Assembly (NCBI GenBank): GCA_025964695.1
Contig: JAOPYK010000074.1
Location: 62,001 to 126,000, forward strand
Reading direction: 5' to 3'
Source of the DNA: Streptosporangiaceae bacterium
GTDB lineage: Bacteria > Actinomycetota > Actinomycetes > Streptosporangiales > Streptosporangiaceae
DNA: 64,000 nt
The notes beneath the pieces are model-generated. The model had not been told where the DNA came from, ran no database searches, and worked only from the letters and a program-made list of their open reading frames with translations. Position numbers and translations under genes: made by a program. Shown piece after piece: positions 11,726 to 27,127 of this stretch. Every line of letters begins with the position of its first letter. Within the stretch, counting starts at the first letter, position 1.

Positions 11726-14700
11726 GTGAGCGCGCCGCGGCTGCCGGAGCATCTCGAGATGCTGCTGACCGAAGAACCCGTGCTGGACGTCTACTCGCAT
11801 GGTCCGTGGCGGGTTCCGGACGGGCTTTACGAGGCGATGCGGGAGCGGGCGCTGGCCTTCGACCGGGACCCGCGGGCGGCCGTTCTCACCCGGGCGGCCA
11901 ATCCCTTCTACGCCGACAGCACCTCGGTGCTGGGCGCGGAGATGTGGTCGCTGCTCACCTTCCTGCTGGGCGCCGGGGCCATCCGCGCCGGCTCCCGGGG
12001 GGATGTGGACTACGAGCTGCTCGCCGACTTCCTGGCCAAGCCGGAGCCGGCGGTTCGGGACCCGCTGGCGTTCTTCACCCAGAGCGGCCGGTTGCGGCCG
12101 CCCGGGATGTGGTTGCCGGAGTCGGCGGGTGATGATCGCGACCGCCGGGCCGTCATGCTGGAACTGGCGCGCGAATGCCTGGACGTCTTCGAGGGACTGG
12201 AGCCGCTCGACGAGCGGCGCCGGGCCCTGATCGGGATGCACGAGCTGCGGGCCGCCGACCCGAAGCTGCACGAGCAGGATCTGACCCTGCCCGTCGCCGA
12301 GCTGGAGGCGGCGTGGGCGGCGGGCGCGGACGAGGCGGCCCTGGCGGTGCTGCCCGAGCTGAGCGGCGCGCTCGGCCATCTGGAGTGGGCGTGCGCGGGG
12401 TTCACCGCCGCGCACGAGCGCCTGGTCGCCACGACGGGTGACGGGGACGCGATCGACCTGGCACTGGCCAGGCTGATGCTGCAGGCCGAGCTCACCGTGC
12501 TGCCCGCCGAGCTCGCCATGGCCCTGGGGCTGGCGCGTTACGAGTCGGTCCAGGAGCGGATGCGCGCGCTGCGCGAGAGCTATGCGGTGGAGACCTGGCA
12601 GAACGACGTGCGCGGCTGGCTGGCGCGCGGGCTGGTGGCCGGTGAGGCGGACGCCTGCCGGGCCTGGCTGGACATGGCGCTGCGCGTCACGGGAGCGGTG
12701 CAGGGTCTGCCCGACATCCTGAGCACGCCCAAGCACCGGGTGCCGATCCGGGCGTTCCAGCGCGACCTGCGCCGCCTCTTCCAGCGCCGGACGGTGGTCA
12801 ACCCGCTGGTGGCCCGGTTCGCCCCGCGCCCGGCCGAGCCGGACACCGAGTCCTCAGGCGAGTCCTCGGGCGAGGCCGGTGCCGAGGAGGGGGAGAAGGC
12901 TTCGGGGCGGGATCCGGCGGCGCCGCCGGGACCGGCGGATGCCCTGGTCGGGCAGCCCGAGCTGGCCGCGGGGATCCGAACGGCCCTGGGTACCCAGGAC
13001 CGGCCCGTGCGGCTGCTCATCTCCGGGCCGGAGGGCACCGGCAAGGGCACCGCCGTGGCGCTGCTCGAACAGGCGCTCGTGGACCGGGGCACCGTCCGCG
13101 ACTCGCTGTGGGTCTCCGATCAGGTGTTCCCCAACCTGCACGTCAGCGATGCCGTGCTCTGGTTCCAGGCGCGGGTGCGCGAATGCGTCGACGGCAAGCT
13201 GCTGCTGGTCGTGGACGATCTCGACAAGCTCTCCGGCGCCGACCGCTGCGGGCCCGCGCTGACCGAGGAACTGCGCCGCCTGATGGCCCGCTATCCGCGG
13301 CTGCACGTGGTCGCGCTCTGCCGGCCGGGCGGTCAGGAACGGCTCTTCGAGGCCAACCCGGCACTGGTGCAGGGCTTCCAGGTCACCCGGACTCGTGAGT
13401 TCGGGGAGGACGACTACACAGAGCTGTTCCAGCGCATGATCACCTCACGCGGGGGAGTGGTCGCCAAGGACGTCGCCCGGACCGCCGGAGTGCTGCTGGC
13501 CCGGACACCGCCGCTGCTCAACCTGCGCAACGCCCGGCTTGCCGACTTCCTGGCCGCCCAGTGCCTGGTGGCGGCACGCTCCCGCGGCGCCGGCCCGGAC
13601 CTGCCCGAGGTGATCGCGGCGGACCTGCCGCAGCGGCTCATCCAGGGCGGTGCCGGCGGCACCGACCCGCTCGCCGAACTGGCGGCGTGCGCGGGCATCG
13701 AAGGGGTCAAGCAGGAGGTGGCACTGCTCATCGCGGAGGCCAAGGCGGCCCGGCTGCGCCGCGAGGCGGGCATGGCCGTCGCCGCCCGCCCGCGCCACCT
13801 GGTCTTCACCGGCAGACGCGGGACCGGCAAGACGAAGGTCGCGCGCCTCCTCGGCCGCATCTACGCCGATCTGGGCGTGCTGTCATCGGGACACCTCGTC
13901 GAAGTGGACCGGGCAGACCTCGTCGGCGAGTACGCCAGTGAGAGCGGCCCCCGGGTGCGCAGAGCGGTGGAGCGGGCCCAGGGCGGCGTGCTCGTGATCG
14001 AAGACGCGCACACTCTCAAGGCCGCCGACTCGCCCCGCGACCGGGAGGCGATCGACGTCCTGCTCGCCGCCCTGCAGCAGCATCCCGAGGACCTCGTGGT
14101 GGTGCTGACCGGGCCGGAGGCCGACATCAACGGCCTGCTCAAGGGGGAGGCCGAGCTGGCCGCGTTCTTCCCCAAAGTTGTGCGCTTCGCGGACCTCGCC
14201 GAGGCGGACCTGGTGAGCATCTTCGCCGCGAAGGCCGCGGACGGCGGGTTCGCGCTGGCCGATGGCGTGCTCGACAGGGTACGCGCCCTGGTGCACGCCG
14301 TTCCGCGCGGCAACGCCTTCGCCAACGCCAGACTTATGATCAACTTGCTGGACCGTGCGGTGGCCATGCAGGGCCGCCGGGTGCTCGAGGACGGCATCCT
14401 CGACGAGGACGAGTCACTGTCCGAACTGCTGGTGGAGGACATTCCCGACGCCCTCACCGCCGCCGGCCGGGTCGAGCTACCCGGCGACCCGCTGGCCGAG
14501 ATCGACCGGCTGGTCGGGCTGGAGGCCGTCAAGCACGAGGTGAAGCTGCTGGTCGACGAGGTCAAGGCCGAGCAGATACGCCGTGACGCGGGCATCCCCA
14601 TCGCGGCCCCCACCCGGCACATGGTCTTCACCGGCAACCCCGGCACGGCCAAGACCACCGTGGCCCGGCTGATCGCCGCGGTCTACGCCCGGCTGGGGCT

Positions 14701-15325
14701 GCTGTCGTCGGGACATCTGGTCGAGGTGGGCCGGGCCGATCTGGTCGGGGAGTACGTCGGCCAGACCGCGCCCAAGGTGCGGGCCGCGGTGGACCGGGCA
14801 TTGGGGGGAGTGCTGTTCATCGACGAGGCCTACGCGCTCACCCCGCCCGACTCGGCCCGCGACTACGGGCACGAGGCGGTGGCCGAGCTGCTCAAGCTGA
14901 TGGAGGAGCAGCGGGCCGACCTGGTCGTCATCGTCGCCGGATACGAGCGTGAGATGCAGCGGTTCCGCGAGTTCAACCCGGGGCTGGCGTCGCGGTTCCC
15001 GCATGTCCTGCGTTTTCCCGACTACACCGACGACGAGCTCGTCACCATCTTCGAGATCATGGCCGCCGAAGCCGGGTTCACTCTCGCCGACGGGGTGCTG
15101 GACGCCGTCCGGGCGCTGGTGCGGGCCGCCCCGCGCGGGCCGTCGTTCGGCAACGCCCGGCTGATGCGCAACGTCCTGGACCGGGCCGTGGCCCTGCAGG
15201 CACAGCGCATCATGTCGGCCGAGACCCCGGCCTCCGTCGAGGAGATCCGCCGCCTGCGCCCGGCCGATCTGCCGGGCGGCGGTCCCTCGCAAGACCGTGA
15301 CGACGTCATCGGCCCGTACCTCTGA
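11726..15325 (+). CDS. Large three-module AAA ATPase (SpoVK/CbbX-like C-terminal half)
   Basis: 1,199 residues. After about 410 residues of helical N-terminal region and an acidic linker come three P-loop modules. Module 1: Walker A GPEGTGKGT near residue 433 with VVDDLDKL as Walker B. Module 2: GRRGTGKTK near 696 with IEDAH instead of the usual DE Walker B. Module 3: GNPGTAKTT near 969, IDEAY and a full CbbX/SpoVK-like second region. Modules 2 and 3 are close repeats, sharing SSGHLVEV, RADLVGEY and PRG-F-NARLM blocks. CbbX/EccA-type ATPases remodel protein complexes; the client here is unknown. GTG 11726 has GAAGGG upstream. Confidence 0.85.
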   Translation: MSAPRLPEHLEMLLTEEPVLDVYSHGPWRVPDGLYEAMRERALAFDRDPRAAVLTRAANPFYADSTSVLGAEMWSLLTFLLGAGAIRAGSRGDVDYELLADFLAKPEPAVRDPLAFFTQSGRLRPPGMWLPESAGDDRDRRAVMLELARECLDVFEGLEPLDERRRALIGMHELRAADPKLHEQDLTLPVAELEAAWAAGADEAALAVLPELSGALGHLEWACAGFTAAHERLVATTGDGDAIDLALARLMLQAELTVLPAELAMALGLARYESVQERMRALRESYAVETWQNDVRGWLARGLVAGEADACRAWLDMALRVTGAVQGLPDILSTPKHRVPIRAFQRDLRRLFQRRTVVNPLVARFAPRPAEPDTESSGESSGEAGAEEGEKASGRDPAAPPGPADALVGQPELAAGIRTALGTQDRPVRLLISGPEGTGKGTAVALLEQALVDRGTVRDSLWVSDQVFPNLHVSDAVLWFQARVRECVDGKLLLVVDDLDKLSGADRCGPALTEELRRLMARYPRLHVVALCRPGGQERLFEANPALVQGFQVTRTREFGEDDYTELFQRMITSRGGVVAKDVARTAGVLLARTPPLLNLRNARLADFLAAQCLVAARSRGAGPDLPEVIAADLPQRLIQGGAGGTDPLAELAACAGIEGVKQEVALLIAEAKAARLRREAGMAVAARPRHLVFTGRRGTGKTKVARLLGRIYADLGVLSSGHLVEVDRADLVGEYASESGPRVRRAVERAQGGVLVIEDAHTLKAADSPRDREAIDVLLAALQQHPEDLVVVLTGPEADINGLLKGEAELAAFFPKVVRFADLAEADLVSIFAAKAADGGFALADGVLDRVRALVHAVPRGNAFANARLMINLLDRAVAMQGRRVLEDGILDEDESLSELLVEDIPDALTAAGRVELPGDPLAEIDRLVGLEAVKHEVKLLVDEVKAEQIRRDAGIPIAAPTRHMVFTGNPGTAKTTVARLIAAVYARLGLLSSGHLVEVGRADLVGEYVGQTAPKVRAAVDRALGGVLFIDEAYALTPPDSARDYGHEAVAELLKLMEEQRADLVVIVAGYEREMQRFREFNPGLASRFPHVLRFPDYTDDELVTIFEIMAAEAGFTLADGVLDAVRALVRAAPRGPSFGNARLMRNVLDRAVALQAQRIMSAETPASVEEIRRLRPADLPGGGPSQDRDDVIGPYL

Positions 15326-15348
15326 GCCGACGAGACGCACCCGGATGC

Positions 15349-15378
15349 GGTGGCGGCCGGGGCGTTCCGGCCGCCACC
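15349..15378. terminator. Perfect 12-bp hairpin between convergent genes
   Basis: GGTGGCGGCCGG (15349-15360), loop ggcgtt, CCGGCCGCCACC (15367-15378). It lies between the AAA gene stop (15325) and the stop of the small minus-strand gene (15382). GC-rich with no T tract; probably a bidirectional transcription stop. Confidence 0.6.
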
Positions 15379-15381
15379 GGA

Positions 15382-15669
15382 TCAGGGAGTGGGATTGCGG
15401 GAGTGCTCGGTCAGATAACCGGTGTAGATCGGGCGGAGCGCCTCGGCCACCTTCCCGTCACCGGCCAGCGCGAAGTCACTGAGCAGCGCGGAAATGTGCA
15501 GAAGGTCGGAGTTGCTGCGCTCGAGGTCGCCGGTCGCCGCCTGGGCGGCCGGGATCTCGCTCATCAGCCGCCACAGGAACTTGACGTCCCCCCGGTGCAC
15601 GGCGAGCTTGATCGCGCGGTCATGTAGCTCCTTGGCGGACAGAGTGTCCAAATCATCGACATCGGCCAT
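15382..15669 (-). CDS. Small conserved-looking helical protein, function unknown
   Basis: 95 residues from ATG 15669 (MADVDDLDTLSAKELHDRAIKLA...). TTG 15687 would add 6 residues but has no better ribosome binding site. The sequence is soluble, mostly helical, without Cys clusters or signal peptide. I recognise it only as the kind of short protein annotated as hypothetical in actinomycetes. It follows the ABC exporter gene on the same strand with a 31-base gap, so the two may be co-transcribed. Confidence 0.65.
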   Translation of the reverse strand: MADVDDLDTLSAKELHDRAIKLAVHRGDVKFLWRLMSEIPAAQAATGDLERSNSDLLHISALLSDFALAGDGKVAEALRPIYTGYLTEHSRNPTP

Positions 15670-15700
15670 GCACACGACCCTACTCAACCGTTCCGCCCGC

Positions 15701-17773
15701 TCAGTCGGGAACGTGCGCGTAGGCCGAGGCCTGCAGGGTGTAGAGCTCGGCGTAGAGACCGTCCAGCTCCATCAGCGTGTCGTGGTCGCCCTGTTCGATC
15801 ACCTGGCCGTGGTCCAGGACGTAGATCCGGTCGGCGTGCCGGACACTGGCCAGCCGATGGGTGATGAGCAGGACCGTACGGCCGTCCGAGTGCGCCCGGA
15901 TGCGCTCGAAGAGGGAATGCTCGGCGCGGGCGTCCAGCGCGGCGGTGGGCTCGTCGCAAATGAGCAGGGGAGCGTCCCGGTAGAAGCCACGAGCGACCGC
16001 GAGGCGCTGCCACTGGCCGCCGGACAGCTCGGCGCCGCCGTCGAAGCGGCGGTCGAGCAGGGTTTCGTAGCCGTGCGCCAGGTCGTCGATGACCTGGTCG
16101 GCGCCGGCGGCGACGGCGGCCTGCTCGATGGCGTGGTCACTGCCGGCCCGGCCCATCGAGATGTTCTGCCGGGCCGTCATCGGCCAATGCGTGTGGTCCT
16201 GGGCGATCACCGCGATCCGCTGCCGGAGCTGCTCGGGGTCGACCCGCCACAGTGAGGTGTCGTCCCAGCGGACCTCGCCGCCGTCGGGATCGTAGAGACC
16301 CGCGAGGATCTTGGCCAGCGTGGTCTTGCCGGAGCCGTTCTCGCCGACCAGGGCGATGACCTCACCGCGCCGGACCTCCACTGAGACCCCGGTCAGCGAC
16401 GGGCTCTCGGCCCCCGGATAGGTGAAGGTGACCTCGTCGGCGGTGATCCGCTCGAAGTCCCATGGGACGGGTTCGTCGGTCACCTGTTCTCTGCGCGGCT
16501 CCGGTACGGCCGCGTGCTCGGCGCCGCGCTCGCGTACCGGCTCCGCGTCGCCCGGCTCGCGCACGGGGGCGGCCTGGCCGGGCGCGGGCCCCGGGTCGCC
16601 GGTGCGCTCGCATACCGGACCCGAGCGGTCGCCTCGGGGCAGACGTTGCTCGGCCTCGGCGCAGAAGCCGAGATAGTCGCTGAAGTACAGGCCCTCCTCG
16701 TAGCAGCGGTTGATGGCGTAGACGAGGTTGGCCAGCGAGGTCTGGCCGGTCCTGATGGCCAGCACGGCCGTGCCCGCCACGGCGAGGGGGACCTCGCCGT
16801 TCCATAGCAGGAGGCCGAGGGAGAGGTAGACGATCGCCGTCGCCACGCCCTTGAGCATGTCTCCGAAGAGACGGGCGACCGTCTGCCGGCGGGCCACGTC
16901 CATCTCGGCGTCCCGTACGTGCGCGGCGAGGCGGACATACTGCTCCAGCAGGAAGTCACGGACCGTGAAGGACCGCACCTCGGCGGCGTGCCGGCGCTGG
17001 GTCATGAGATCCGACAGGATCCATTTGCGCCGTCTGGTGGAGACCAGGGTGAGCATCGTCAGGTAGCGCAGCCGCGCGGCCCGGACCGAGGCCCAGCCCT
17101 CCGGCAGGGCGGTGGCCAGCAGCAGCGGAAGCAGCAAGGGGTGCAGCACGCCCAGGGCGCCCGCGGCGGCCACCATGCCGACGGCGCCGGTGAGCACGTC
17201 GATCGTGAAGTTGACCATGCCGGGAGCGGCCTGTATGCCTCGGCCCTCGGCCCGCTGCATGCCGTCGAGGAAGTCCGAGTCGTCCAGAGCGGCCAGTTCC
17301 ACCGCGGTGCAGAGCTCGAACAACCGGATCTCGACGAGACGGTCGACCTGCGGTTCCAGCCGCGCCTGCGCCCATCCGGCGGCCGCCTGGAGACCGGCCC
17401 GCAGCGCGGTGGCCACTCCGACGAGAATGAGCGACGGCAGCGCGGCACGGACCCGGTCCGGGGTCGGCCCGGCGGCGAACAGCGCGTGCAGCACGCCGGT
17501 GGTGGCGAGCAGGCCGAAGGCGGTGAAGATACCGGCCAGCAGGTTGAGTGAGATGGTGACGGCGGTGTCGGCCCGGCTCGCCTGCCAGGCCAGCCGCAGC
17601 GCCTGGCCGATCAGGGCCGGCAGCCGGCGGGCCACCGTGATCAGGCCGGTCTCGGCGAGTTCGCCCGTGCGGGCCGTCCATCTGTGTTCGGCCAGTTTCG
17701 GCCCTTCGATCTCCTGAGGAGTGCGGCTGCGCCTGCGGCGCCACCGGGTGAACAGCCCCCCCTGAATGCCCAT
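15701..17773 (-). CDS. ABC exporter, fused membrane and ATPase domains (NisT/LanT-like)
   Basis: 690 residues. An N-terminal membrane domain with several hydrophobic segments (about residues 60-330) is joined to an ATPase with Walker A GENGSGKTT, signature LSGGQWQRLAVARGFYRD, Walker B LLICDEPTAALD and ITHR. The W in LSGGQWQR and the following wording resemble lanthipeptide-type exporters such as NisT. There is no N-terminal C39 peptidase. A Pro/Ala/Glu-rich insert lies between the membrane and ATPase domains. ATG 17773 has CGGAGGG 5 bases upstream. No precursor peptide or modification enzyme is adjacent, so the cargo is open. Confidence 0.85.
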   Translation of the reverse strand: MGIQGGLFTRWRRRRSRTPQEIEGPKLAEHRWTARTGELAETGLITVARRLPALIGQALRLAWQASRADTAVTISLNLLAGIFTAFGLLATTGVLHALFAAGPTPDRVRAALPSLILVGVATALRAGLQAAAGWAQARLEPQVDRLVEIRLFELCTAVELAALDDSDFLDGMQRAEGRGIQAAPGMVNFTIDVLTGAVGMVAAAGALGVLHPLLLPLLLATALPEGWASVRAARLRYLTMLTLVSTRRRKWILSDLMTQRRHAAEVRSFTVRDFLLEQYVRLAAHVRDAEMDVARRQTVARLFGDMLKGVATAIVYLSLGLLLWNGEVPLAVAGTAVLAIRTGQTSLANLVYAINRCYEEGLYFSDYLGFCAEAEQRLPRGDRSGPVCERTGDPGPAPGQAAPVREPGDAEPVRERGAEHAAVPEPRREQVTDEPVPWDFERITADEVTFTYPGAESPSLTGVSVEVRRGEVIALVGENGSGKTTLAKILAGLYDPDGGEVRWDDTSLWRVDPEQLRQRIAVIAQDHTHWPMTARQNISMGRAGSDHAIEQAAVAAGADQVIDDLAHGYETLLDRRFDGGAELSGGQWQRLAVARGFYRDAPLLICDEPTAALDARAEHSLFERIRAHSDGRTVLLITHRLASVRHADRIYVLDHGQVIEQGDHDTLMELDGLYAELYTLQASAYAHVPD

Positions 17774-17916
17774 GCGGACCCTCCGGCTCGTGTATCCCCC
17801 CTCAGCAGTGTGCCCCGCGAGGAGGACGAGCTTTAGGGCAAATCTCACACAGTGTGGCTACGAGGTGAGGCTTGACGTCATGCGCGGGAGCGACGCGCGG
17901 ACTTGGCGGCGTTGTC

Positions 17917-17922
17917 TATGTT
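17917..17922 (+). promoter_or_regulatory. -10 box for the LCP gene, likely leaderless
   Basis: TATGTT, exactly 6 bases before ATG 17929, with no ribosome binding site. This spacing puts transcription start at the A of ATG. No recognisable -35 box is present. Confidence 0.5.
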
Positions 17923-17928
17923 TGCTGC

Positions 17929-19005
17929 ATGAACGACGGCCGATCGGAGCAGTGGACCAGACCAGGGCGGGGTGAGCACATGGCGGGGGCGCCGGTGGCG
18001 GCACCGTGGCAGGGCGGCGGGCCGCCCGGATCCGCTCCGGGGCCGGTCAGGCGCAGGCGGCGCCGCTGGCCTAGAGTGCTGCTCGGCGTGGTAGTGGTGC
18101 TGGCGATCCTGATCGTCGGCGGCTACTTCTATCTGGACTCACGGCTCAAGCGCGAGAACGCGCTGGTCGACTACGCCGGCCGGCCGGCCGACACACCGGG
18201 GACGAACTGGCTGATCGTCGGCTCCGACAGCCGTGCGGGCCTGACCAAGCAGCAGCGCCGGGACTACGCGACCGGCAACGCCGCCGGCCGCCGCACCGAC
18301 TCGATGATGCTGATGCACACCGGCTCGGGCGGGACGACCCTGGTCAGCCTGCCGCGCGACTCATACGTCCCGATCCCGGGACACGGGTCCAACAAGCTCA
18401 ACGCGGCCTTCGCCTTCGGCGGCCCGCAACTGCTCGTCCGCACGATCGAGCAGGCGACCGGCGTGCGCGTCGACCACTACGCGGAGATCGGATTCGGCGG
18501 TTTCGTCGGGGTCGTGGACGCGGTCGGCGGGGTGCGGATGTGCATCAAGCAGCCGATGAAGGACCGCAAGGCCGGCCTGGACCTGAAGAAGGGCTGCCAG
18601 ACCCTCAACGGCGGGGAGGCGCTCGGCTATGTCCGCACCCGGGCCTCCGCGCGGGCCGACCTCGACCGGGTCGCCCGCCAGCGGCAGTTCTTCAGCGCCC
18701 TGATCAGCAAGGCGACCAGTCCCGGAGTGGTCCTCAACCCGTTCAGCAGCATCCCCATGGCTTTGCACGCGACCGACAACTTCTCCGTCGACCAGCGGGA
18801 CGGCCTGTCAGACCTGGTCGGGCTGATGTGGTCGATCAAGGGCGTCAGTTCCGGTGGCGGCATCACCACCACGGTGCCGGTGGGCGGGTTCGGTTCCTCT
18901 CCCGCCGCGGGGTCCTATCTGATCTGGGACCGCACCAAGGCGGCCGAGCTGTTCGGCGCGCTCAAGGCCGACACGAAAGTACCCGCGGACATCGTCTCGC
19001 GCTGA
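17929..19005 (+). CDS. LytR-CpsA-Psr (LCP) family cell-wall glycopolymer ligase
   Basis: 358 residues. A 40-residue cytoplasmic tail ends in an Arg-run, then a single membrane span (about 49-68), then the extracellular LCP domain. Typical blocks are TNWLIVGSDSR, RRTDSMMLMH, LVSLPRDSYVPIP, KLNAAFAFGGP and RTRASARADLDRVARQRQF; the arginines and aspartates bind the pyrophosphate lipid substrate. LCP proteins attach teichoic-acid-like or arabinogalactan-like polymers to peptidoglycan. I chose ATG 17929 because a -10 box sits 6 bases upstream; ATG 17980 is the alternative. It is followed by two tiny membrane protein genes. Confidence 0.92.
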   Translation: MNDGRSEQWTRPGRGEHMAGAPVAAPWQGGGPPGSAPGPVRRRRRRWPRVLLGVVVVLAILIVGGYFYLDSRLKRENALVDYAGRPADTPGTNWLIVGSDSRAGLTKQQRRDYATGNAAGRRTDSMMLMHTGSGGTTLVSLPRDSYVPIPGHGSNKLNAAFAFGGPQLLVRTIEQATGVRVDHYAEIGFGGFVGVVDAVGGVRMCIKQPMKDRKAGLDLKKGCQTLNGGEALGYVRTRASARADLDRVARQRQFFSALISKATSPGVVLNPFSSIPMALHATDNFSVDQRDGLSDLVGLMWSIKGVSSGGGITTTVPVGGFGSSPAAGSYLIWDRTKAAELFGALKADTKVPADIVSR

Positions 19006-19125
19006 GTCGGCGGCCGAGTCGGCGGCTGAGTTGGCGCGGTCTTTACGGAGTGCCGACGCCGCCGGGACACGGATCAGGGAATAGCTCTCAGTAGTCATCC
19101 GTCTACCGAGAGTGCAGGCATCCTG

Positions 19126-19278
19126 ATGAAGAAGTATGCCAAGTGGGGGTCCATCGCTTTCGTGCTGTGGTTCATGATCAGCCGGCCCAGCGAGGCGGCC
19201 GGCGTCGTCCACGGCACCCTGGGTGGTCTCGGCGGCGCGGCCAACCACCTGGGGCAATTCGTGAGTTCTATCCCGTAA
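19126..19278 (+). CDS. 50-residue membrane peptide, first of two tandem paralogs
   Basis: The product starts MKKYAKWGSIAFVLWFMISRPS and continues EAAGVVHGTL, ending LGQFVSSIP. There is a basic N-terminus, one hydrophobic span (about residues 8-19), then a Gly/Ala-rich helix. It is clearly related to the next gene: both share MKK, an IAFV span, a P-x-x-AAGVV motif and a QFV ending. Function is unknown. The ribosome binding site is weak. The resemblance to a second copy in frame, with matched length, is the main evidence that it is real. Confidence 0.75.
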   Translation: MKKYAKWGSIAFVLWFMISRPSEAAGVVHGTLGGLGGAANHLGQFVSSIP

Positions 19279-19322
19279 GCCCGCTAAGCCCGCGATACGG
19301 CGGTCGCTTCGTCACCGTCGGT

Positions 19323-19356
19323 AAGCCCCGTGCCGCACCCCGGCGCGGGGCTTTCT
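19323..19356 (+). terminator. Rho-independent-like terminator after the first small peptide
   Basis: AAGCCCCG (19323-19330) pairs with CGGGGCTT (19346-19353), followed by TTCT. It ends the first peptide transcript and so separates the two paralogs into different transcription units. Confidence 0.7.
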
Positions 19357-19473
19357 GTGGCCGCTCTCACATGCTGGACTGGTGGTCACATGAAACTCTC
19401 TTTAAGGGCAGAATCAGATGGGCACAACTGAATAGGGTCAGTGTGTCACTGCGTAACAAGGGGACGGCGACTG

Positions 19474-19629
19474 ATGAAGAAGAACCTCCGCTACGTGGCC
19501 ATCGCTTTCGTAGTCTTCTACCTGCTCAGTCAACCGACGAACGCTGCCGGCGTGGTCAACAACGCTTTCAATGCTCTGGCCAGCGCCGGTACGTCGCTGG
19601 CGCAGTTCGTGAACCACCTAGGTGCATAG
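19474..19629 (+). CDS. 51-residue membrane peptide, second of two tandem paralogs
   Basis: The product starts MKKNLRYVAIAFVVFYLLSQ and continues PTNAAGVVNNAFNALASAG, ending LAQFVNHLGA. It has the same layout as the peptide at 19126: charged start, single hydrophobic span, AAGVV block and amphipathic helix. ATG 19474 has AAGGGGACGG about 8-10 bases upstream; a GTG at 19441 would add 11 residues without any better site. Short proteins of this pattern look familiar from actinomycete genomes, but I know no assigned function. It could be a membrane-associated partner of the LCP or exporter nearby. Confidence 0.78.
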   Translation: MKKNLRYVAIAFVVFYLLSQPTNAAGVVNNAFNALASAGTSLAQFVNHLGA

Positions 19630-19696
19630 GTGCGCACCTAAACCCGAGTTTTGGCCAGCCGATACGGGCCCGGGTAGCGGATCGAGACCGTGTCGT

Positions 19697-19702
19697 TAAG
19701 AT
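19697..19702 (+). promoter_or_regulatory. -10 box for the glutathione peroxidase gene
   Basis: TAAGAT, 7 bases before ATG 19710, with no Shine-Dalgarno sequence between. This suggests a leaderless or nearly leaderless transcript. The -35 region is not recognisable. Confidence 0.4.
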
Positions 19703-19709
19703 CGGTCAC

Positions 19710-20198
19710 ATGTCTATCTATGACGTGGAGATCGAAGGGCTGCAGGGCGGTTCCGCCGACCTCGCGCAATATCGGGGCAAAGCCGTACTGGTGGTGAACG
19801 TCGCTTCCAAGTGCGGGCTCACCCCGCAGTACACCGGGCTGGAGCAGCTGCAGGAGAGCTACGCCGGGCGCGGCTTCACCGTTCTGGGCGTGCCCTGCAA
19901 CCAGTTCATGGGTCAGGAACCGGGCACGGCCGAAGAGATCGCCCAGTTCTGCTCGGCCACCTATGGGGTGACCTTCCCGATGACCGAAAAGGTCGACGTG
20001 AACGGCCCGCAACGGCATCCCCTCTACCAGGGACTGGTCGGCACGCCCGACACGACAGGTCACACCGGCGACATCCGCTGGAACTTCGAGAAGTTCCTGA
20101 TCGCCCCGGACGGCACCGTGGCGGCCCGCTTCGACCCCCGGACCGAGCCCGACTCCGACGACCTCGTCGTAGCCATCGAGAAGACCCTGCCCACCTGA
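19710..20198 (+). CDS. Glutathione peroxidase family thiol peroxidase
   Basis: 162 residues. Peroxidatic Cys35 is in NVASKCGLTPQ (Cys, not selenocysteine), and the tetrad partners Gln65 (CNQF) and Trp124-Asn125 (IRWNFEKF) are present. Monomeric, cytoplasmic enzymes of this type reduce H2O2 and organic peroxides; in actinomycetes, which lack glutathione, thioredoxin or mycothiol systems are the probable reductants. The open frame extends far upstream without a stop, but the homology starts at MSIYDVEIEGL, fixing ATG 19710. Confidence 0.93.
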   Translation: MSIYDVEIEGLQGGSADLAQYRGKAVLVVNVASKCGLTPQYTGLEQLQESYAGRGFTVLGVPCNQFMGQEPGTAEEIAQFCSATYGVTFPMTEKVDVNGPQRHPLYQGLVGTPDTTGHTGDIRWNFEKFLIAPDGTVAARFDPRTEPDSDDLVVAIEKTLPT

Positions 20199-20262
20199 TC
20201 TTCGCCGGTCCGATCCCGCCGGCGTGCCGCACCGGCCGTGCGCGACCATGGGATCGATGGCC

Positions 20263-20304
20263 TGACGCAGAAGGTCCGGCGCAGAAGGTCTGACGCAGAA
20301 GGTC
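20263..20304. repeat. Three tandem copies of a 14-base unit
   Basis: tgacgcagaaggtc at 20263-20276, cggcgcagaaggtc at 20277-20290 and tgacgcagaaggtc at 20291-20304. The array ends 21 bases before the SDR start codon, in its 5-prime region. The period equals that of the array at 683-732. Confidence 0.85.
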
Positions 20305-20325
20305 TGACTCGAGAGTGGTGGTCCC

Positions 20326-21237
20326 ATGGGCTGGACGGCGGCCGACATCCCCGATCTGACCGGGCGGCGCGCGATCGTCACCGGTGCCAACAGCGGCATC
20401 GGCTATCACACGGCGCTGGAACTGGCCCGGCACGGCGCCGATGTAGTGCTGGCCTGCCGCAGTGCCGAGCGCGGCGGCGCCGCCCTTGGCCGGATCCGCG
20501 CCGAGCTGCCGCAGGCGTCGGTCACCCTGGGGTCACTGGACCTGGCGAGCCTCGACTCGGTACGGGCGTTCAGCGCGGGACAGGAGAGCCCGCTGGACAT
20601 CCTGGTGAACAACGCCGGGGTGATGGCGCTGCCCCGGCGCACCACCGCCGAGGGATTCGAGATGCAGTTCGGCACCAACCATCTCGGCCATTTCGCACTC
20701 ACCGGGCTGCTGCTCCCCGCCCTGCAGGGAGGACGGAACCCCCGGGTGGTCACGGTGACCAGCATGGCGGCCTGGGGCGGCCACATCCGGTTCGACGATC
20801 TCCAGGGGGAGTGGAGGTATCGCCGCTGGCCCGCCTACTGCCAGGCCAAACTGGCCAACCTGCTGTTCGCCAAGGAGCTCGACCGGCGCGTCGACGGCCT
20901 GACCAGTGTCGCCGCCCACCCCGGCTACGCCACGACCAACCTGCAGCAGACCGCGCCCCGCGAACTCGGATCCAAGTTCCGGGAGAAGGGGTACGGCCTC
21001 AGCAACGCGCTGCTCGGCCAGTCGGCCGCCGCGGGCGCGCTGCCCACGCTGTACGGCGCGACCGCACCCCGGGTGCGAGGCGGGGAGACCTACGGGCCCC
21101 GCGGCCTGTTCCAGCAGCGAGGCCTGCCCACCCGGGTCCGGACCAACCCGCGGGCCGACAGGCCCGAGCTCGCCCGCAAGCTGTGGGAGGTCTCCGAGGA
21201 CCTCACCGGTGTCGCCTACGACGTGATGACCCCCTGA
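20326..21237 (+). CDS. Short-chain dehydrogenase/reductase
   Basis: 303 residues. It has the NAD(P) motif VTGANSGIG (about residues 18-26), NNAGVM, and the catalytic Ser in VTSMAAWGG with YCQAK (Tyr about 172, Lys about 176). This long SDR type resembles retinol-dehydrogenase-like oxidoreductases (WWOX-like) common in actinomycetes; the substrate is unknown. The stop codon lies inside the loop of a terminator. The 5-prime region carries the tandem repeat. Confidence 0.9.
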   Translation: MGWTAADIPDLTGRRAIVTGANSGIGYHTALELARHGADVVLACRSAERGGAALGRIRAELPQASVTLGSLDLASLDSVRAFSAGQESPLDILVNNAGVMALPRRTTAEGFEMQFGTNHLGHFALTGLLLPALQGGRNPRVVTVTSMAAWGGHIRFDDLQGEWRYRRWPAYCQAKLANLLFAKELDRRVDGLTSVAAHPGYATTNLQQTAPRELGSKFREKGYGLSNALLGQSAAAGALPTLYGATAPRVRGGETYGPRGLFQQRGLPTRVRTNPRADRPELARKLWEVSEDLTGVAYDVMTP

Positions 21238-21250
21238 GCGGGGGATTTTT
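21230..21250 (+). terminator. Rho-independent terminator overlapping the SDR stop codon
   Basis: CCCCC (21230-21234), TGAGC, GGGGG (21240-21244) then ATTTTT. The SDR stop TGA (21235-21237) forms the loop. Confidence 0.75.
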
Positions 21251-21255
21251 GCGGC

Positions 21256-21301
21256 GGCTAGTCCACCTCAGTGATGAGTGCCTCACGCCTGAGGACTAGC
21301 C
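21256..21301. other. Large imperfect hairpin with nested inner stem
   Basis: GGCTAGTCC (21256-21264) pairs perfectly with GGACTAGCC (21293-21301). Inside, CTCAG and CTGAG extend the stem after a small bulge, and TGAG/CTCA can pair at the tip. It immediately follows the terminator of the SDR gene and precedes the rhomboid-like gene. Confidence 0.6.
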
Positions 21302-21358
21302 CAACGTCAGCTGAAAGCCCGATGGCAGGCGCGGGACGGCGGTGAGATCGTGTGATAC

Positions 21359-22090
21359 ATGATCATCGCTGCCCCGCCGCGCGCCCACCGGAGTCCTTCC
21401 CGCCCGGTGACCCGGAGCCCGGTCTCGGCCGTCGTCGAGGAGTGGCATCGGCTCATGGCCGTGCCCCGGCTCAGTATGCGCGAAGGCCGGCGTGCCTTTC
21501 CGCTGACGCTCTGCTCGACTGGGCTGATCATGGTGCTGTGGCTGGCTCAGATGACCCGGCAGGGCGAGGCCGCGGTTCGCCTTCTCGGCGGGATCAGCGC
21601 GAAGCTGCCGCTCGACGTCGCGTTGATCCGGCTGCCGGGATCCATGCTCGTGCCCGCGCCGAACCTGCCCGCCTGGGGCGCGCTGACACAGGTCCTGCTG
21701 GTCTTCGGGCTGGCCGAGGCCTGGTTCGGAGCACGACGGACGCTCGGGATCGCGCTGGCCGCGACCGCTCTGAGCACCCTCGGCGGCAGGATCATGTGCA
21801 TGCTCGGCCCGCACCACCTGCTGGGCCTGCCGGGCTCTGAGGCCTGGGTGCTCGACACCGGCCCGTCCTCGGCCGTGGTGGCGCTCCTGGTCTACGTGTG
21901 CTGCCGCCGCCGGGCCTGGCTGACGCTGTCCGTTCTGGTCGCCACCATGGTGGGCGAGCTGATCGTGCTGCCAAACCTGGCGGGCCGTGAGCACATCATC
22001 GCCATCGCGGTGGGCGCCGCGGCCGCCTCGCCGCTGGTCGTCCGCCGGGTCCAGCTGAGGCAGCTCGCGGCGCCCGTCTCTACGGGGTGA
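21359..22090 (+). CDS. Rhomboid-like integral membrane protein
   Basis: 243 residues with about six hydrophobic segments. The motif LDTGPSSAVVALLVYV near residue 165 resembles the serine-bearing helix of actinobacterial rhomboid-like proteins, and MCMLGPHH precedes it, consistent with an intramembrane serine protease fold. A histidine (REHIIAIAVGA) lies in the last span and could complete a dyad. Activity is not certain. ATG 21359 has no clear ribosome binding site. The 3-prime end overlaps the end of the convergent ogt gene by 11 bases. Confidence 0.65.
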   Translation: MIIAAPPRAHRSPSRPVTRSPVSAVVEEWHRLMAVPRLSMREGRRAFPLTLCSTGLIMVLWLAQMTRQGEAAVRLLGGISAKLPLDVALIRLPGSMLVPAPNLPAWGALTQVLLVFGLAEAWFGARRTLGIALAATALSTLGGRIMCMLGPHHLLGLPGSEAWVLDTGPSSAVVALLVYVCCRRRAWLTLSVLVATMVGELIVLPNLAGREHIIAIAVGAAAASPLVVRRVQLRQLAAPVSTG

Positions 22091-22631
22091 CCGGCCCCAG
22101 GGAGGGATCCCAGTCGAGGGTCGGTGGGAGCGCGCCCTCGAGGGTGAGCAGCCAGCGTTTGATCTCCGGGCCGGAACCGCCGCTGTAGCCGCCGAGACCG
22201 TTGCTCGCCACGACCCGGTGGCAGGGGACGATCACCGGGACGGGATTGGAGCCCATGATCTGGCCGATGGCCCGGGCGGGCACGCCGGCACCGCTGCGCT
22301 CACCCAGCTCGCCGTAGGTCACCATCCGCCCGAACGGCACCGTCTCGTGGAGTGTGCCGAGCACCCGCCCCTGCACCCGGGAGGTCAGCCGCCAGTCGAC
22401 CGGCAGCGTGAACTTCTCCAGCCGGCCGGCGAAGTAGTCCGCGAGTTCGGCGAGCACCGGAGCCGTACGACCGGGGTCGGCGGCGACCGGCAGCCCGACC
22501 GTGGCGGCCGGCCGGGCGCGTTCGGCGGGGGAGTCCCCGAAGTGCACCCAGGCGACACCGATCTCGGTGACGCCGACCAGCAGCCGCCCGACGGGGGTGT
22601 CGACGGCGCCGAGCGCGACGGTCTGGTTCAT
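22080..22631 (-). CDS. ogt: Methylated-DNA-protein-cysteine methyltransferase
   Basis: 183 residues. The active-site motif is VPVIVPCHRVVASNG (Cys137), preceded by the DNA-binding helix region (FGRMVTYGELGERSGAGVPARAIGQIM). It repairs O6-alkylguanine by irreversible transfer of the alkyl group to Cys137. ATG 22631 overlaps the stop of the MFS gene by 4 bases, so it is coupled to that transporter. The much longer open frame upstream is the shadow of the MFS gene. Confidence 0.95.
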   Translation of the reverse strand: MNQTVALGAVDTPVGRLLVGVTEIGVAWVHFGDSPAERARPAATVGLPVAADPGRTAPVLAELADYFAGRLEKFTLPVDWRLTSRVQGRVLGTLHETVPFGRMVTYGELGERSGAGVPARAIGQIMGSNPVPVIVPCHRVVASNGLGGYSGGSGPEIKRWLLTLEGALPPTLDWDPSLGPVTP

Positions 22632-23878
22632 CGGGAGTCCCTGGCCAGAAGGAGAACGACGATCATCGGGATGACGAAGGCGGCGATGAGGCCGGCCAGG
22701 ACAGCGTAGGACGACAGCATCACGATCGCTCCCGCGAGCACGCCGCCGAGCGCGCCGCCGCCGTTCATCAGCAGGTCCGACAACCCCTGCACGGAGGGTC
22801 GTCTTTCTGCCGGGACGGAGTCGGTGAGCAGCGCGGACCCGGCGACCAGCCCGCACGACCAGCCGGTGCCGAGCAGGATCAGCCCGGCGGACAGCTGCCC
22901 CACGTCGTGCGCGGAGGACGTGCCGGCCAGTGCCGTCGCGGCGATCAGCTGCACCATGCCGAGCAGTAGCACGGGAAGGTGGCCGAGCTGGTCTGCCAGC
23001 CAGCCGACCAGCGGCGACAGCGCGAACATCCCGGCGATGTGCAGGCTGATCACGATGCCGACCACCGTCACGTCGGCGCCCCCATGGTTGAGGTGCACCG
23101 GGGTCATCGACATCAGCGAGACCATCGCGGTGTGGCTCACCACGATGGCGGCCACCGCGATCCGGCCACTGCGGGAGGCGCGGAGCGTCCGCCAGGCCGC
23201 ACCGAGGGAACGGTCCGGACCGGGGGTGCCCGCGGCCTCGAGCTTCTGGGCGAGGCGCAATGGGTCGGGGCGCAGCCCGGCCAGGATCCCGAGCGCGGCC
23301 AGGCCGAACGCCAGGGCCGCCAGCGCGTACGGCCCGGCCCGCTCCGGCAGCCCGAACCACGCGCCCACCCGGCCGGCGGGCGCGGCCAGGTTGGGCCCGG
23401 CCACCGACCCGATGGTGGTGGCCCAGACGACGATCGACAGGTCCCGGGCGGAGTGGCCCGGTCTGGACAGGTCGGTGGCGGCGTAGCGGGCGGCCAGGTT
23501 GGCGGTGCTCCCGCCGCCGAAGAGCAGCAGGCCGGCCAGCATGAGCGGCCATGTCCCGAGGGCGAGGGCGGTCATGGTGACCACGGCGCCGAGCACTCCG
23601 CAGCCATAGGCGAACATCAGCGCCGTCCGCCGGCCGCTGCGCGCGGCCGCCCGGGCCGTGGGCACGGCGAGGAGCGCCGCGCCCAGCACCGCGCTGGTCT
23701 GGGCGAGCCCGCCGATCGCGTCGGACCCGGACAGCGACGCGGCGGCCAGCGTGCTGACGGCCACGCCGGTGGCGACCCCGATGCCGCCGAGCACCTGAGT
23801 GGCGGTGAGCACACGGATGATCCGACGCTGGACACCGGCCGGCACAGAGGTGGCCGGTCTGTCGTCTGTGAGCGCCAT
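22628..23878 (-). CDS. MFS transporter, probable drug or metabolite exporter
   Basis: 416 residues from ATG 23878 (GGAG 3 bases upstream), with about twelve hydrophobic segments. An MFS cytoplasmic-loop signature is visible as ARSGRRTALMF. The start was chosen by the ribosome binding site; the open frame continues 126 bases upstream without support. Typical of Bcr/CflA- or EmrB-like exporters, but the substrate is not readable. Its coupling to ogt may mean defence against an alkylating compound, which is inference only. Confidence 0.88.
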   Translation of the reverse strand: MALTDDRPATSVPAGVQRRIIRVLTATQVLGGIGVATGVAVSTLAAASLSGSDAIGGLAQTSAVLGAALLAVPTARAAARSGRRTALMFAYGCGVLGAVVTMTALALGTWPLMLAGLLLFGGGSTANLAARYAATDLSRPGHSARDLSIVVWATTIGSVAGPNLAAPAGRVGAWFGLPERAGPYALAALAFGLAALGILAGLRPDPLRLAQKLEAAGTPGPDRSLGAAWRTLRASRSGRIAVAAIVVSHTAMVSLMSMTPVHLNHGGADVTVVGIVISLHIAGMFALSPLVGWLADQLGHLPVLLLGMVQLIAATALAGTSSAHDVGQLSAGLILLGTGWSCGLVAGSALLTDSVPAERRPSVQGLSDLLMNGGGALGGVLAGAIVMLSSYAVLAGLIAAFVIPMIVVLLLARDSR

Positions 23879-23895
23879 GGGCTCCTGTCCGGTCG

Positions 23896-23920
23896 CCGGA
23901 AGATGTCGAGATACTTCCGG
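23896..23920. promoter_or_regulatory. Inverted repeat before the MFS gene (candidate operator)
   Basis: CCGGAAG (23896-23902) and CTTCCGG (23914-23920) separated by 11 bases, 18-42 bases upstream of the MFS start. Position fits a repressor site in the 5-prime region of the MFS-ogt operon. Confidence 0.45.
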
Positions 23921-24138
23921 AATTCTAGGGGTGTGCGACCTGGTGATCACGGGATCACTCGCCGGGCAGGCTCGGCGGACGGCGCCCGGCCGCCCGAACA
24001 TCACCCCTGGGGCGGAACTTGTGGCTGCGCACTTCCGGGACGTGCGACTCGTCGGTAACCGACTCGTTCGCTTGAAATTCCCTTGCGCGGAACCGGGAGG
24101 CGGCCCGGCCGTAGCGCCGCCCCGTCACGCTCACGGCC

Positions 24139-25257
24139 GTGAAGGTCGCAATCGTGGCCGAGTCGTTCCTGCCCCGGATCAACGGGGTCACCAACTCGGT
24201 CTGCCGTGTCCTGGACCACCTCGCCGCCCGCGGGCACGACGCAATCGTCGTCGCTCCCGCCCCCGGCCCGGACAGCTACGCCGGTTTCCCGGTACGGCTG
24301 GTGCCGGGCGCCGCACTTCCCTTCTACCGTTCCTTCGTCGTGGGCATGCCGGGCCGCAGGGTGGAAGAGGCCCTGCGTGACTTCGGGCCCGACGTCGTTC
24401 ATCTGGCGTCACCACTGGTGCTCGGCTCGTCCGGCGCCGCCGCCGCCCGGCGCCTCGGTGTGCCGGCCGTCGCGGTGTTCCAGACCGACGTCGCCGGTTT
24501 CGCCCGCCGGTACGGCCTGCGCGGCACCGACCGGGTCATCTGGTCCTGGCTGCGGCACATCCACGAGCAGGCGGACCGCACCCTGGCCCCGTCCATGCCG
24601 ACCCTGCGGGAACTGGAGAGATGGGGTCTGCCGCGGCTCGAGCTGTGGGGCCGCGGGGTCGACCAGGATCGCTTCGACCCCCGTCATCGCTCGGCGGCGC
24701 TGCGGGCCGAATGGGCTCCCGGCGGGGAGGTTCTGATCGGCTACGTCGGCCGGCTGGCCGCCGAGAAGAGTCCCCGGCTGCTGGCCCGGCTTGCCGATCT
24801 GCCGGGGACCCGGCTGGTGGTGGTCGGGGACGGCCCCGAGGAACAGCGGCTGCGCCGGCTGCTGCCCGGCGCGGTCTTCACCGGCCTGCGCACGGGGCGG
24901 CAGTTGTCGCAGATCATGGCGTCCCTCGACGTGTTCGTGCACACCGGAGCCAACGAGACGTTCTGCCAGGCCGTACAGGAGGCACTGTCGGCGGGGGTGC
25001 CGGTGGTGGCCCCGGCCGCCGGTGGCCCGCTCGACCTCATCCGGCCCGGCGACAACGGGCTGCTGTTCACTCCCGGGGACGGCGACGCGCTGCGCGCGGC
25101 GGTGGCGAGCCTGGCGGCCGACGAGGCGCAACGCATCCAGATGGGTGTCGCGGGCCGCCGGTCGGTACGAGGGCGTACCTGGCAGGCGATCTGCGACGAA
25201 CTGATCGGACATTACGAAGAGGCGGCCTTCGGAGCCATGGCGAGGCGGGCCGCGTGA
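24139..25257 (+). CDS. GT4 glycosyltransferase, GDP-mannose-dependent mannosyltransferase type (MgtA-like)
   Basis: 372 residues. A GT-B enzyme with N-terminal VAESFLPRINGVTNSVCRVL, the donor-site VGRLAAEKSPRLL near residue 205 and the acid/nucleotide motif GANETFCQAVQEALSAGVPVVAP near 272. This pattern matches actinobacterial alpha-mannosyltransferases that act on glucuronosyl- or phosphatidylinositol-type lipids. It is cytoplasmic at the membrane. GTG 24139 has no obvious ribosome binding site. The stop overlaps the next gene by 4 bases (GTGA), and the third gene is another GT4, so the three form one unit. Confidence 0.88.
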   Translation: MKVAIVAESFLPRINGVTNSVCRVLDHLAARGHDAIVVAPAPGPDSYAGFPVRLVPGAALPFYRSFVVGMPGRRVEEALRDFGPDVVHLASPLVLGSSGAAAARRLGVPAVAVFQTDVAGFARRYGLRGTDRVIWSWLRHIHEQADRTLAPSMPTLRELERWGLPRLELWGRGVDQDRFDPRHRSAALRAEWAPGGEVLIGYVGRLAAEKSPRLLARLADLPGTRLVVVGDGPEEQRLRRLLPGAVFTGLRTGRQLSQIMASLDVFVHTGANETFCQAVQEALSAGVPVVAPAAGGPLDLIRPGDNGLLFTPGDGDALRAAVASLAADEAQRIQMGVAGRRSVRGRTWQAICDELIGHYEEAAFGAMARRAA

Positions 25258-26009
25258 CCTTCCCTTTCGTGGTGTCCGTGCACGACGTCGCCTCCGCGAC
25301 CGCGGAGCAGACCGCCACCTGGATCGCCGATCTGGACGAACGCGAGGTGCCGGCGACGCTGCTGATCGTCCCGGCCGCGTTCGGCGGCGGCCCCGCGCTG
25401 CCCGACGACCCCGCCCTCGTGGCGTACCTGCACGCCGCGGTGGGACGCGGTCATGAGCCGTCGCTGCACGGGTTCCGGCACCGGGGAGTGCCGGGCGGTC
25501 CACGGTGGCGGCGGACGGTCGATCAGGTTCTGGCCCGTGGGGCGGGGGAGTTCTGGTCGCTCACCGAACAGCAGGCCCGGGAACTGCTGCGGGCCGGCCT
25601 GGAGGTGCTGGCGGGCGTCGACATCGGGGTCACCGGCTTCACGCCGCCCGGCTGGCTCGCCTCTCCCGGGGCCCGGCGCGCCCTGGCCGAGCTCGGGTTC
25701 CGCTACTGGACCAGCCAGCTGGCCGTCCACGATCTCGGTGCCGGGACCGTACACCGCATGCCCGCGCTCTCGCACCGCCCCGGCGGAGCGGGTGAACGGG
25801 CCGGAGCCCATCTCATGATCGCCGCGGCGCGGTCGCTGTCCCGCCTGCGCAGACCCTTCCGGATCGCCCTGCACCCGGCGGATCTGGACCACGCCGGGTT
25901 GCGCGAGGCCGCCCACGCGGCCATCGAGCTGGCCCTGGCGGCCGGCGGCCGGCCGGTGACGTACGAGACCCTCGTCATCGGTCCGGGTCCGGAGACGATC
26001 GACGCGTGA
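25254..26009 (+). CDS. DUF2334 polysaccharide deacetylase-like protein
   Basis: 251 residues starting VTFPFVVSVHDVASATAE. The HD of VSVHDV, the SLHGFRHRG block and the late IALHPADLD histidine match the metal-site pattern of NodB-like deacetylases in the DUF2334 branch. Such proteins may remove acetyl groups from a glycolipid intermediate; no signal peptide is seen, so it would act inside the cell. GTG 25254 overlaps the upstream glycosyltransferase stop, and its own stop overlaps the next gene at 26006-26009. The longer open frame from 24621 is a shadow. Confidence 0.85.
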   Translation: MTFPFVVSVHDVASATAEQTATWIADLDEREVPATLLIVPAAFGGGPALPDDPALVAYLHAAVGRGHEPSLHGFRHRGVPGGPRWRRTVDQVLARGAGEFWSLTEQQARELLRAGLEVLAGVDIGVTGFTPPGWLASPGARRALAELGFRYWTSQLAVHDLGAGTVHRMPALSHRPGGAGERAGAHLMIAAARSLSRLRRPFRIALHPADLDHAGLREAAHAAIELALAAGGRPVTYETLVIGPGPETIDA

Positions 26010-27127
26010 GGATCGTTCAACTGGCGAACCTCTACAGTCCCGTGTCGGGAGGTCTGCGCACCGCCGTGGACGCGCTCGGCCGGGGTTACCTCGCCGCCGG
26101 CCACGACCGGGTGCTCGTCGTGCCCGGCCGGTCCTACACCCGGCGGCAGACCGAGGCGGGACCGGTCGTGACCGTCCCCGGCCCGTCGATCGCGCCCGGC
26201 TACCGTTTTGTACTCGACCCACGGCCGGTACTGCGGGTGCTCGACCGGCTCGGGCCGGACGTCGTCGAGGTGTCGGACAAGGCGACCCTCGCGGTCGCGG
26301 CCCGCTGGGCCCGCAGGCGCGGGGTGCGCTCCGTGCTGTTCTCGCACGAACGGCTCGACGCGATCCTCGCACCGCGCCTGCCCAGGCTGCCGGAGCGGCT
26401 GCCGGTCGAACGCGCCCTCCAGCAGGCCACGGACTGCTGGAACCGCCGGCTGGCGAGCGCGTTCGACGCGATCGTGGTCACCTCGGCGTTCGCCGCCGCC
26501 GAGTTCGTGCGGGTAGGCGCCCCCGCGTTGCACCGGGTTCCGCTCGGCGTTGATCTCGGCACCTTCCGCCCGCCGCCACATGCCGCGGCCGGCCGGGTGG
26601 CCGGCGAGGTACGACTGATCAACCTCGGCCGGCTGTCCGCGGAGAAGAGACCGGAGCTGGCCCTGGAGGCGGCCATCGAACTGCGGCGCCGCGGTATGGA
26701 CGTCAAGCTGGACATGGTGGGCGAAGGGCCGCTCGGCCCCGCACTGCGGCGGGCGGCGGGCCGCGAGGGACTGCGCGCCGAGTTCCACGGTCATGTACGG
26801 TCCCGTGCCGACGTCGCCCGGCTGCTGGGGCGCGCCGACGTGGCCCTCGCCACCTGCCCGGTGGAATCCTTCGGTCTCGCGGTCCTGGAGGCCCTGGCCT
26901 GCGGCACCCCGGTGGTGGCCGCGGACCGCGGTGCCGCGGGCGAGCTGCTCGTGCGCGGCGCGGGAGTAGCCGCCCCCGCCACCGGCACCGGCTTCGCGGA
27001 CGGGGTCGCCGAGGTCCTCGGCTGGCCGGAGGGCTGGCGCCGGGCCGGCGCCCGCCGCCGGGCTGAGCTCTATCCCTGGTCCGCCACCGTGGCCGGCATG
27101 CTCCGCGTGCACACGGGAGGGGACTGA
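26006..27127 (+). CDS. GT4 glycosyltransferase, second of the operon
   Basis: 373 residues. N-terminus LANLYSPVSGGLRTAVDALG, donor motif LGRLSAEKRPELAL near residue 210 and CPVESFGLAVLEALACGTPVVAADRG near 287, all typical of GT-B retaining enzymes. It resembles mannosyltransferases of the PimB/MgtA group, but the acceptor is unknown. GTG 26006 overlaps the DUF2334 stop (GTGA), completing a three-gene coupled operon. Confidence 0.88.
   Translation: MRIVQLANLYSPVSGGLRTAVDALGRGYLAAGHDRVLVVPGRSYTRRQTEAGPVVTVPGPSIAPGYRFVLDPRPVLRVLDRLGPDVVEVSDKATLAVAARWARRRGVRSVLFSHERLDAILAPRLPRLPERLPVERALQQATDCWNRRLASAFDAIVVTSAFAAAEFVRVGAPALHRVPLGVDLGTFRPPPHAAAGRVAGEVRLINLGRLSAEKRPELALEAAIELRRRGMDVKLDMVGEGPLGPALRRAAGREGLRAEFHGHVRSRADVARLLGRADVALATCPVESFGLAVLEALACGTPVVAADRGAAGELLVRGAGVAAPATGTGFADGVAEVLGWPEGWRRAGARRRAELYPWSATVAGMLRVHTGGD

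Follow-up and report, generated by a model that had tools for sequence, protein, structure and literature searches.

Two very short open reading frames follow one another on the forward strand of the window (the whole stretch of 64,000 nucleotides that was analysed), downstream of a gene for a LytR-CpsA-Psr (LCP) protein, and they raise the question of whether they encode genuine proteins and, if so, with which partner. PEP1 (19126..19278, including the stop codon) encodes a membrane-type microprotein of 50 residues, and PEP2 (19474..19629, including the stop codon) one of 51 residues. A sequence-only reading of this DNA had placed both ORFs correctly and noticed the MKK start and the P-x-x-AAGVV block that both have in common. 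Its view of the two as tandem paralogues agrees with the BLASTP comparison (20/49 identical residues, 41%, E 3e-15). It had also given both peptides a QFV ending; the motif is present in each but is not terminal, being followed by a few more residues (QFVSSIP in PEP1, QFVNHLGA in PEP2). The observation as such was right, and the pair is old and conserved.

An undescribed family of actinobacterial microproteins

No model from Pfam or NCBIfam (E <= 1) or from PHROGs (E <= 0.1) matched PEP1 or PEP2. Judged by title or abstract, none of the publications found in our searches describes the peptide family, and no papers came up for SCO4036 or SCO4037, two guessed names. Our profile A2, in which both peptides are rows (E 6.2e-24 for PEP2, 6.2e-22 for PEP1), detected members in 290 of 297 genomes from the family-level group to which the window belongs (E <= 0.001), in 158/394 genomes of its class (E <= 1e-4) and in 25/296 genomes of a phylum sample, among which 10 are not of that class. 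A search with PEP2 found three copies in the window's genome and matches in 43/60 relatives (E <= 0.1), and a PEP2 pattern scan of 84,980 species genomes yielded 111 confirmed relatives, the 80 listed of which comprise 79 actinobacterial titles and one Patescibacteria title. The pN/pS ratio was 0.36 for 37 PEP1 genes (pN < pS in 661/666 pairs, which are not independent) and 0.46 for 35 PEP2 genes (529/595 pairs, likewise not independent). Because of these ratios and the homologues in nearly all family genomes, PEP1 and PEP2 are not chance ORFs, and the search for the AAGVV family in other genomes, by which the sequence-only reading was to be judged, revealed conservation. The family consists of undescribed actinobacterial microproteins of about 50 residues; found in almost all genomes of a large group of antibiotic producers and lacking a model in three libraries, it represents an annotation gap.

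A tree of 246 short sequences, in which deep support was weak and five contigs were entered twice, placed the PEP2-type copies in one group (C2, support 0.87), with a peptide from a contig titled as Patescibacteria (L129, see below) inside it. The PEP1-type copies formed group C1 (support 0.41) joined by four further sequences, which include the single copies of L117 and L120. Tandem copies found in another setting, near ABC-exporter and hisF genes (7 loci and 4 added), made up a clade of their own (support 0.61), which indicates that the peptide gene was probably duplicated more than once. PEP1 and PEP2 diverged as copies long ago. A phage or plasmid origin was considered and rejected: a tblastn search with PEP2 (E <= 0.01) matched none of 50,697 phage records and none of 72,556 plasmid records, and none of 146 pattern matches in viral contigs was confirmed as a relative.

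The proline is kept in 246/246 family sequences, a set that counts some contigs twice (L034/L128, L036/L146, L059/L187, L063/L164 and L125/L132), and an alignment of 30 members has P21 and F45 invariant and F12, A24, A25 and L42 nearly so. Lysine and arginine average 2.5 in the first 8 residues versus 0.8 past the proline (246 sequences). Since the basic flank of a membrane segment stays inside (positive-inside rule), this concentration before the proline suggests that the peptide inserts with its N-terminus inside. Downstream of the proline, the C-terminal helix of 246/246 members exceeds over 95% of shuffled versions of itself in hydrophobic moment, and an AlphaFold2 model of the single PEP2 sequence has helices at residues 2-19 and 24-50 (mean pLDDT 83, pTM 0.46). 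In plan, family members begin with a basic N-terminus, followed by a short apolar helix, a break at the invariant proline and an amphipathic helix. The sequence-only reading had given each peptide one membrane span. A full span is plausible for PEP1 and PEP2, but their apolar core is short, at about 13-15 residues (best 13-residue Kyte-Doolittle means of 1.73 and 2.35, respectively); over 19 residues the values are 1.36 and 1.48, and 74/246 members reach 1.6. With a 17-residue window and a cut-off of 1.5, no segment was found in PEP1 or PEP2 and none in 114/246 members.

The LCP neighbourhood and probable separate transcription of the pair

The upstream gene is indeed of the LCP type (17929..19005, forward strand; PF03816, E 6.1e-44; its start was picked by eye in a frame open from 17872). 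Short near-repeats of gagtcggcggc lie directly past its stop codon (19001-19040). Downstream of PEP2 and on the same strand come a glutathione-peroxidase (GPx) family gene (19710..20198; PF00255, E 2.5e-39) and an SDR gene (20326-21237). LCP, PEP1, PEP2 and GPx occur together in 62 public loci, drawn from the 80 listed of the 111 relatives, and in the window. Several contigs among these 63 pair loci are short; the loci belong mostly to Actinomadura, and also to Spirillospora, Thermomonospora, Actinocorallia and three metagenome records. The SDR gene is present in 52 of them. A protein of 1199 residues with AAA and AAA_lid_6 domains, encoded upstream of an ABC exporter gene (11726-15325 in the window), neighbours the pair in the majority of the 63 loci.

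The LCP gene lies upstream of the pair on the same strand in 62/63 loci but adjoins PEP1 (gap <= 260 nt) in only 6. A homologue of an 87-residue protein stands between the two in 56 loci and elsewhere in three, including the window, where it is encoded on the reverse strand (15382..15687). In one contig, fetched twice (L063/L164), LCP is inverted and an ABC-exporter gene separates it from the pair. The GPx gene, within 600 nt downstream in 63/63 loci, is as constant a neighbour as LCP.

Between PEP1 and PEP2 lies a hairpin (19323..19353, forward strand), a probable terminator, with a 13-bp stem and a 5-nt loop followed by TCTGT instead of a full T run. A terminator scan scored just 19338-19350 of it, and the scan total of 2 against 1.3 expected by shuffling was near chance. 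Across the 63 loci, where the hairpin recurs, the 90 nt after PEP1 fold at a mean of -25.7 kcal/mol versus -19.5 for shuffles; the hairpin reaches -20 kcal/mol or lower in 60 loci, and in 31 none of 20 shuffles equals it. Each gene is also preceded by a conserved leader, and the two leaders carry different blocks (63 loci each). That of PEP1 (19041..19118, forward strand) has a CTTTACGG block, a GGGAATAGCTC block and a ribosome-binding region, and its best site is within one mismatch of GGGAATCACTC in 37/63 loci (a raw count without shuffled control). The leader of PEP2 (19384..19467, forward strand) contains CTCTTTAAGG, GGGCACAA, GGGTCA, GTGTGTCAC and a ribosome-binding site; by raw counts without shuffled control, GGGCACAA is exact in 51/63 loci and CGGGTCA in 50/63. 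This second leader is very strongly kept throughout the 63 loci, and GTGTGTCACTGCGTAAC stands close to its ribosome-binding site. The conserved blocks of both leaders match no sigma-factor consensus that we recognised; a scan for sigma-70 promoters gave 0 sites, with 0.2 expected. Since each gene has a distinct conserved leader and a hairpin follows PEP1, two transcription units are likely, in line with the separate transcription that the sequence-only reading had proposed from the terminator.

That reading had further suggested that the peptides could be partners of the adjacent wall ligase, or signals. In a partnership of this kind, PEP1 (and PEP2) would partner the LCP glycopolymer ligase, with the outer peptide helix touching the LCP catalytic domain. 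The constant upstream position of LCP in this clade would fit, as would the fact that single-copy genera with this setting have retained the LCP-proximal type (L117 and L120, of one genus, have this peptide alone). However, the intervening gene in most loci, the equally constant GPx neighbour and the separate leaders and hairpin all speak against it: neither a constant adjacency nor an operon with LCP was found. Outside the pair clade, moreover, members have no LCP gene nearby and most often adjoin a bPH_2 gene instead, as do 10/10 members from Actinobacteria of other classes. The LCP glycopolymer transferases (PF03816) have a neighbourhood in common with the pair and are a different protein. 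An LCP partnership is weakly supported and, as a mechanism, distinctly unlikely; the link is mainly one of common neighbourhood, and bPH_2 is the better partner candidate.

The bPH_2 gene as the most constant gene partner

We inspected 95 loci, hand-picked from match lists (60, 20 and 13 loci) together with the third copy (L004) and the window, so that the shares are not population estimates. A bPH_2 gene follows the peptide gene on the same strand in 52 of them, within 100 nt in 49 and at 321-408 nt in the other three. A second batch had bPH_2 beside the peptide in 12/15 loci, which include all 10 members from outside the class, and it was also found at L196, L198, L199 and L205, 4 of the 80 listed relatives from the scan. 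The partner (PF03703, E 2.5e-10) has two hydrophobic spans in 26/27 sequences, and its PF03703 domain follows them, as in YdbS-like proteins; it had no NCBIfam match and no solved relative by sequence. The bPH_2 (YdbS-like) protein is the family's most constant and widest gene partner. In the window's own genome the third copy (G000:C82) overlaps a bPH_2 gene, and the pairing thus exists there too. Genes for upp (uracil phosphoribosyltransferase) or of the tadA type are also near most bPH_2-type loci of the window's family. The one candidate examined for a natural fusion of peptide and bPH_2 (L039) was rejected, the apparent fusion being an out-of-frame overlap from a long start choice.

The remaining 43/95 loci lack a bPH_2 neighbour: 10 are of the LCP type, 15 have the ABC-exporter/hisF setting and the rest are various. 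PEP1 and PEP2 belong to this part, with no bPH_2 match in positions 13001-27000 of the window and hence no adjacent bPH_2 gene. In a family of large genomes, by synteny probably Streptomyces (L093-L096, L251 and L252), a single member is followed by genes other than bPH_2. In L093-L096 its surroundings comprise upp/tadA genes, one Dabb-domain gene and a couple of sigma-70-family genes (two), with no bPH_2 neighbour.

In 21 of the 52 bPH_2 loci the peptide's stop codon overlaps the start codon of the partner's frame (ATGA/GTGA). Such an overlap could also be expected if the short ORF regulated the downstream gene as a leader peptide and its product had no function of its own. Nevertheless, the amino acids are conserved over the full length with pN < pS, and paralogues persist without a downstream partner, each with its own leader, which makes this extremely improbable. 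The explanation that we favour, to which we give an even chance, is that the peptides are small, helical subunits in the membrane that work together with the bPH_2 protein and that PEP1 and PEP2 are specialised copies, a function suggested by gene order and peptide anatomy. The peptide would enter the membrane with its N-terminus inside and serve the bPH_2 membrane protein as a small subunit or as a regulator; the apolar helix might pack on this protein, and the amphipathic helix might lie along the membrane or a partner. PEP1 and PEP2 would act likewise under their own promoters, with a distant bPH_2 protein or another envelope protein. Against this subunit role stand the window pair and the other loci without a bPH_2 neighbour, together with an apolar core that is short for a full span. 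To our knowledge, bPH_2 proteins have no known role in most bacteria, and their constant small neighbour provides a direct handle on them.

Patescibacteria copies and resemblance to known systems

A few relatives of the peptides belong to very small bacteria of another phylum, the Patescibacteria. One contig of 78.9 kb (L129) bears the title 'Patescibacteria group bacterium isolate RYN_427', and its peptide (L129:7001-7153) is 92% identical to PEP2. The gene differs from the window's PEP2 at 20/150 bases, with 13 codons changed synonymously and 4 non-synonymously, and from that of L128 at 23/150. It stands alone, without a partner copy, between a NUDIX gene and GAPDH, amid ppa and rpiB-, rpe- and transketolase-like genes (most names given by eye), and these flanks are unlike those of PEP2 in Actinobacteria. 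In the relative G940, ppa and GAPDH are 72 nt apart, with neither NUDIX nor peptide gene; no close ppa neighbour was found in the stretches from other L129 relatives, so that an insertion in L129 rests on this one empty site. As L128 comes from the same RYN metagenome series, real contact and assembly mixing are both possible, and the L129 contig may be a chimeric assembly.

Members occur in 2/7 genomes of the L129 family, the same two being 2/286 of the phylum sample, and in 12/392 genomes of a single Patescibacteria class (E <= 0.001, 11 of them under 5e-6). A 16S primer sequence, which we take to be a signature of Saccharibacteria, was exact in 5 of these 12 and differed by one base in one more; the L129 genome, the L129 family and the window's genome had no match to it. 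Four of the Patescibacteria genomes (L228, L229, L231 and L232) have divergent members near an ftsA-like gene and mnmA, and three class loci have an EngA neighbourhood in common. Since they have these surroundings in common, the divergent copies look inherited rather than freshly acquired. In L232 there is a weak PH-domain match two genes upstream (E 5e-5).

These copies might mean that the peptide, as part of the envelope, is exploited where Actinobacteria and their Patescibacteria epibionts meet, and that the epibionts carry host-derived copies. The members in genomes with the presumed Saccharibacteria signature and the nesting of the L129 peptide in group C2 point in this direction; their rarity in the class, the two L129-family genomes without that signature and the apparently inherited divergent copies point away from it, and we consider the idea clearly improbable. 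A broader combination would join an old peptide-bPH_2 module of Actinomycetota, a second, separately regulated pair in Thermomonosporaceae-like actinomycetes and carriage by Patescibacteria (in a class that includes Saccharibacteria), with recent capture, in at least one case, of a PEP2 gene closely similar to that of the window. Taken as a whole this is rather doubtful; if true, the module would be a host-interface component of epibiosis. Provided that the Patescibacteria copies are genuine, a single short gene could serve to probe what epibionts acquire from actinobacterial hosts.

Aureocin A53-like leaderless bacteriocins are about 44-53 residues long, and PEP1 and PEP2 fall within this range. 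The ancestral peptide-bPH_2 pair resembles leaderless-bacteriocin clusters in gene logic: in both cases a leaderless peptide of ~50 residues is encoded beside a small two-span PH-domain membrane protein, as described for the clusters of enterocin DD14 (PMC8657885) and aureocin A53 (PMC11580447). Export of enterocin DD14 requires both the 141-residue, two-span DdE and the larger DdF (PMC8657885). Many aureocin A53-like clusters, among them some from Actinobacteria, contain PH-domain genes, and aureocin A53 has 51 residues, is highly cationic and contains five Trp (PMC11580447). By this analogy the peptide could be a bacteriocin-like product handled by a YdbS-like bPH_2 exporter. Yet the family does not combine high cationic charge with Trp richness (mean net charge +1.8, with 116/246 members lacking Trp; PEP1 +3 with 2 Trp and PEP2 +3 without Trp, initial Met excluded). 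Unlike sporadic bacteriocins, it is near-universal in its family group and often coupled to bPH_2 by stop/start overlap, and, unlike the bacteriocin clusters, the window pair has no adjacent bPH_2 gene. We regard a bacteriocin as very unlikely. Another comparable system is SmeA/SffA of Streptomyces, where a very small membrane protein is likewise encoded beside a membrane partner; in contrast to the peptide family, SmeA/SffA are limited to streptomycetes and close relatives according to their description (PMC4255298).
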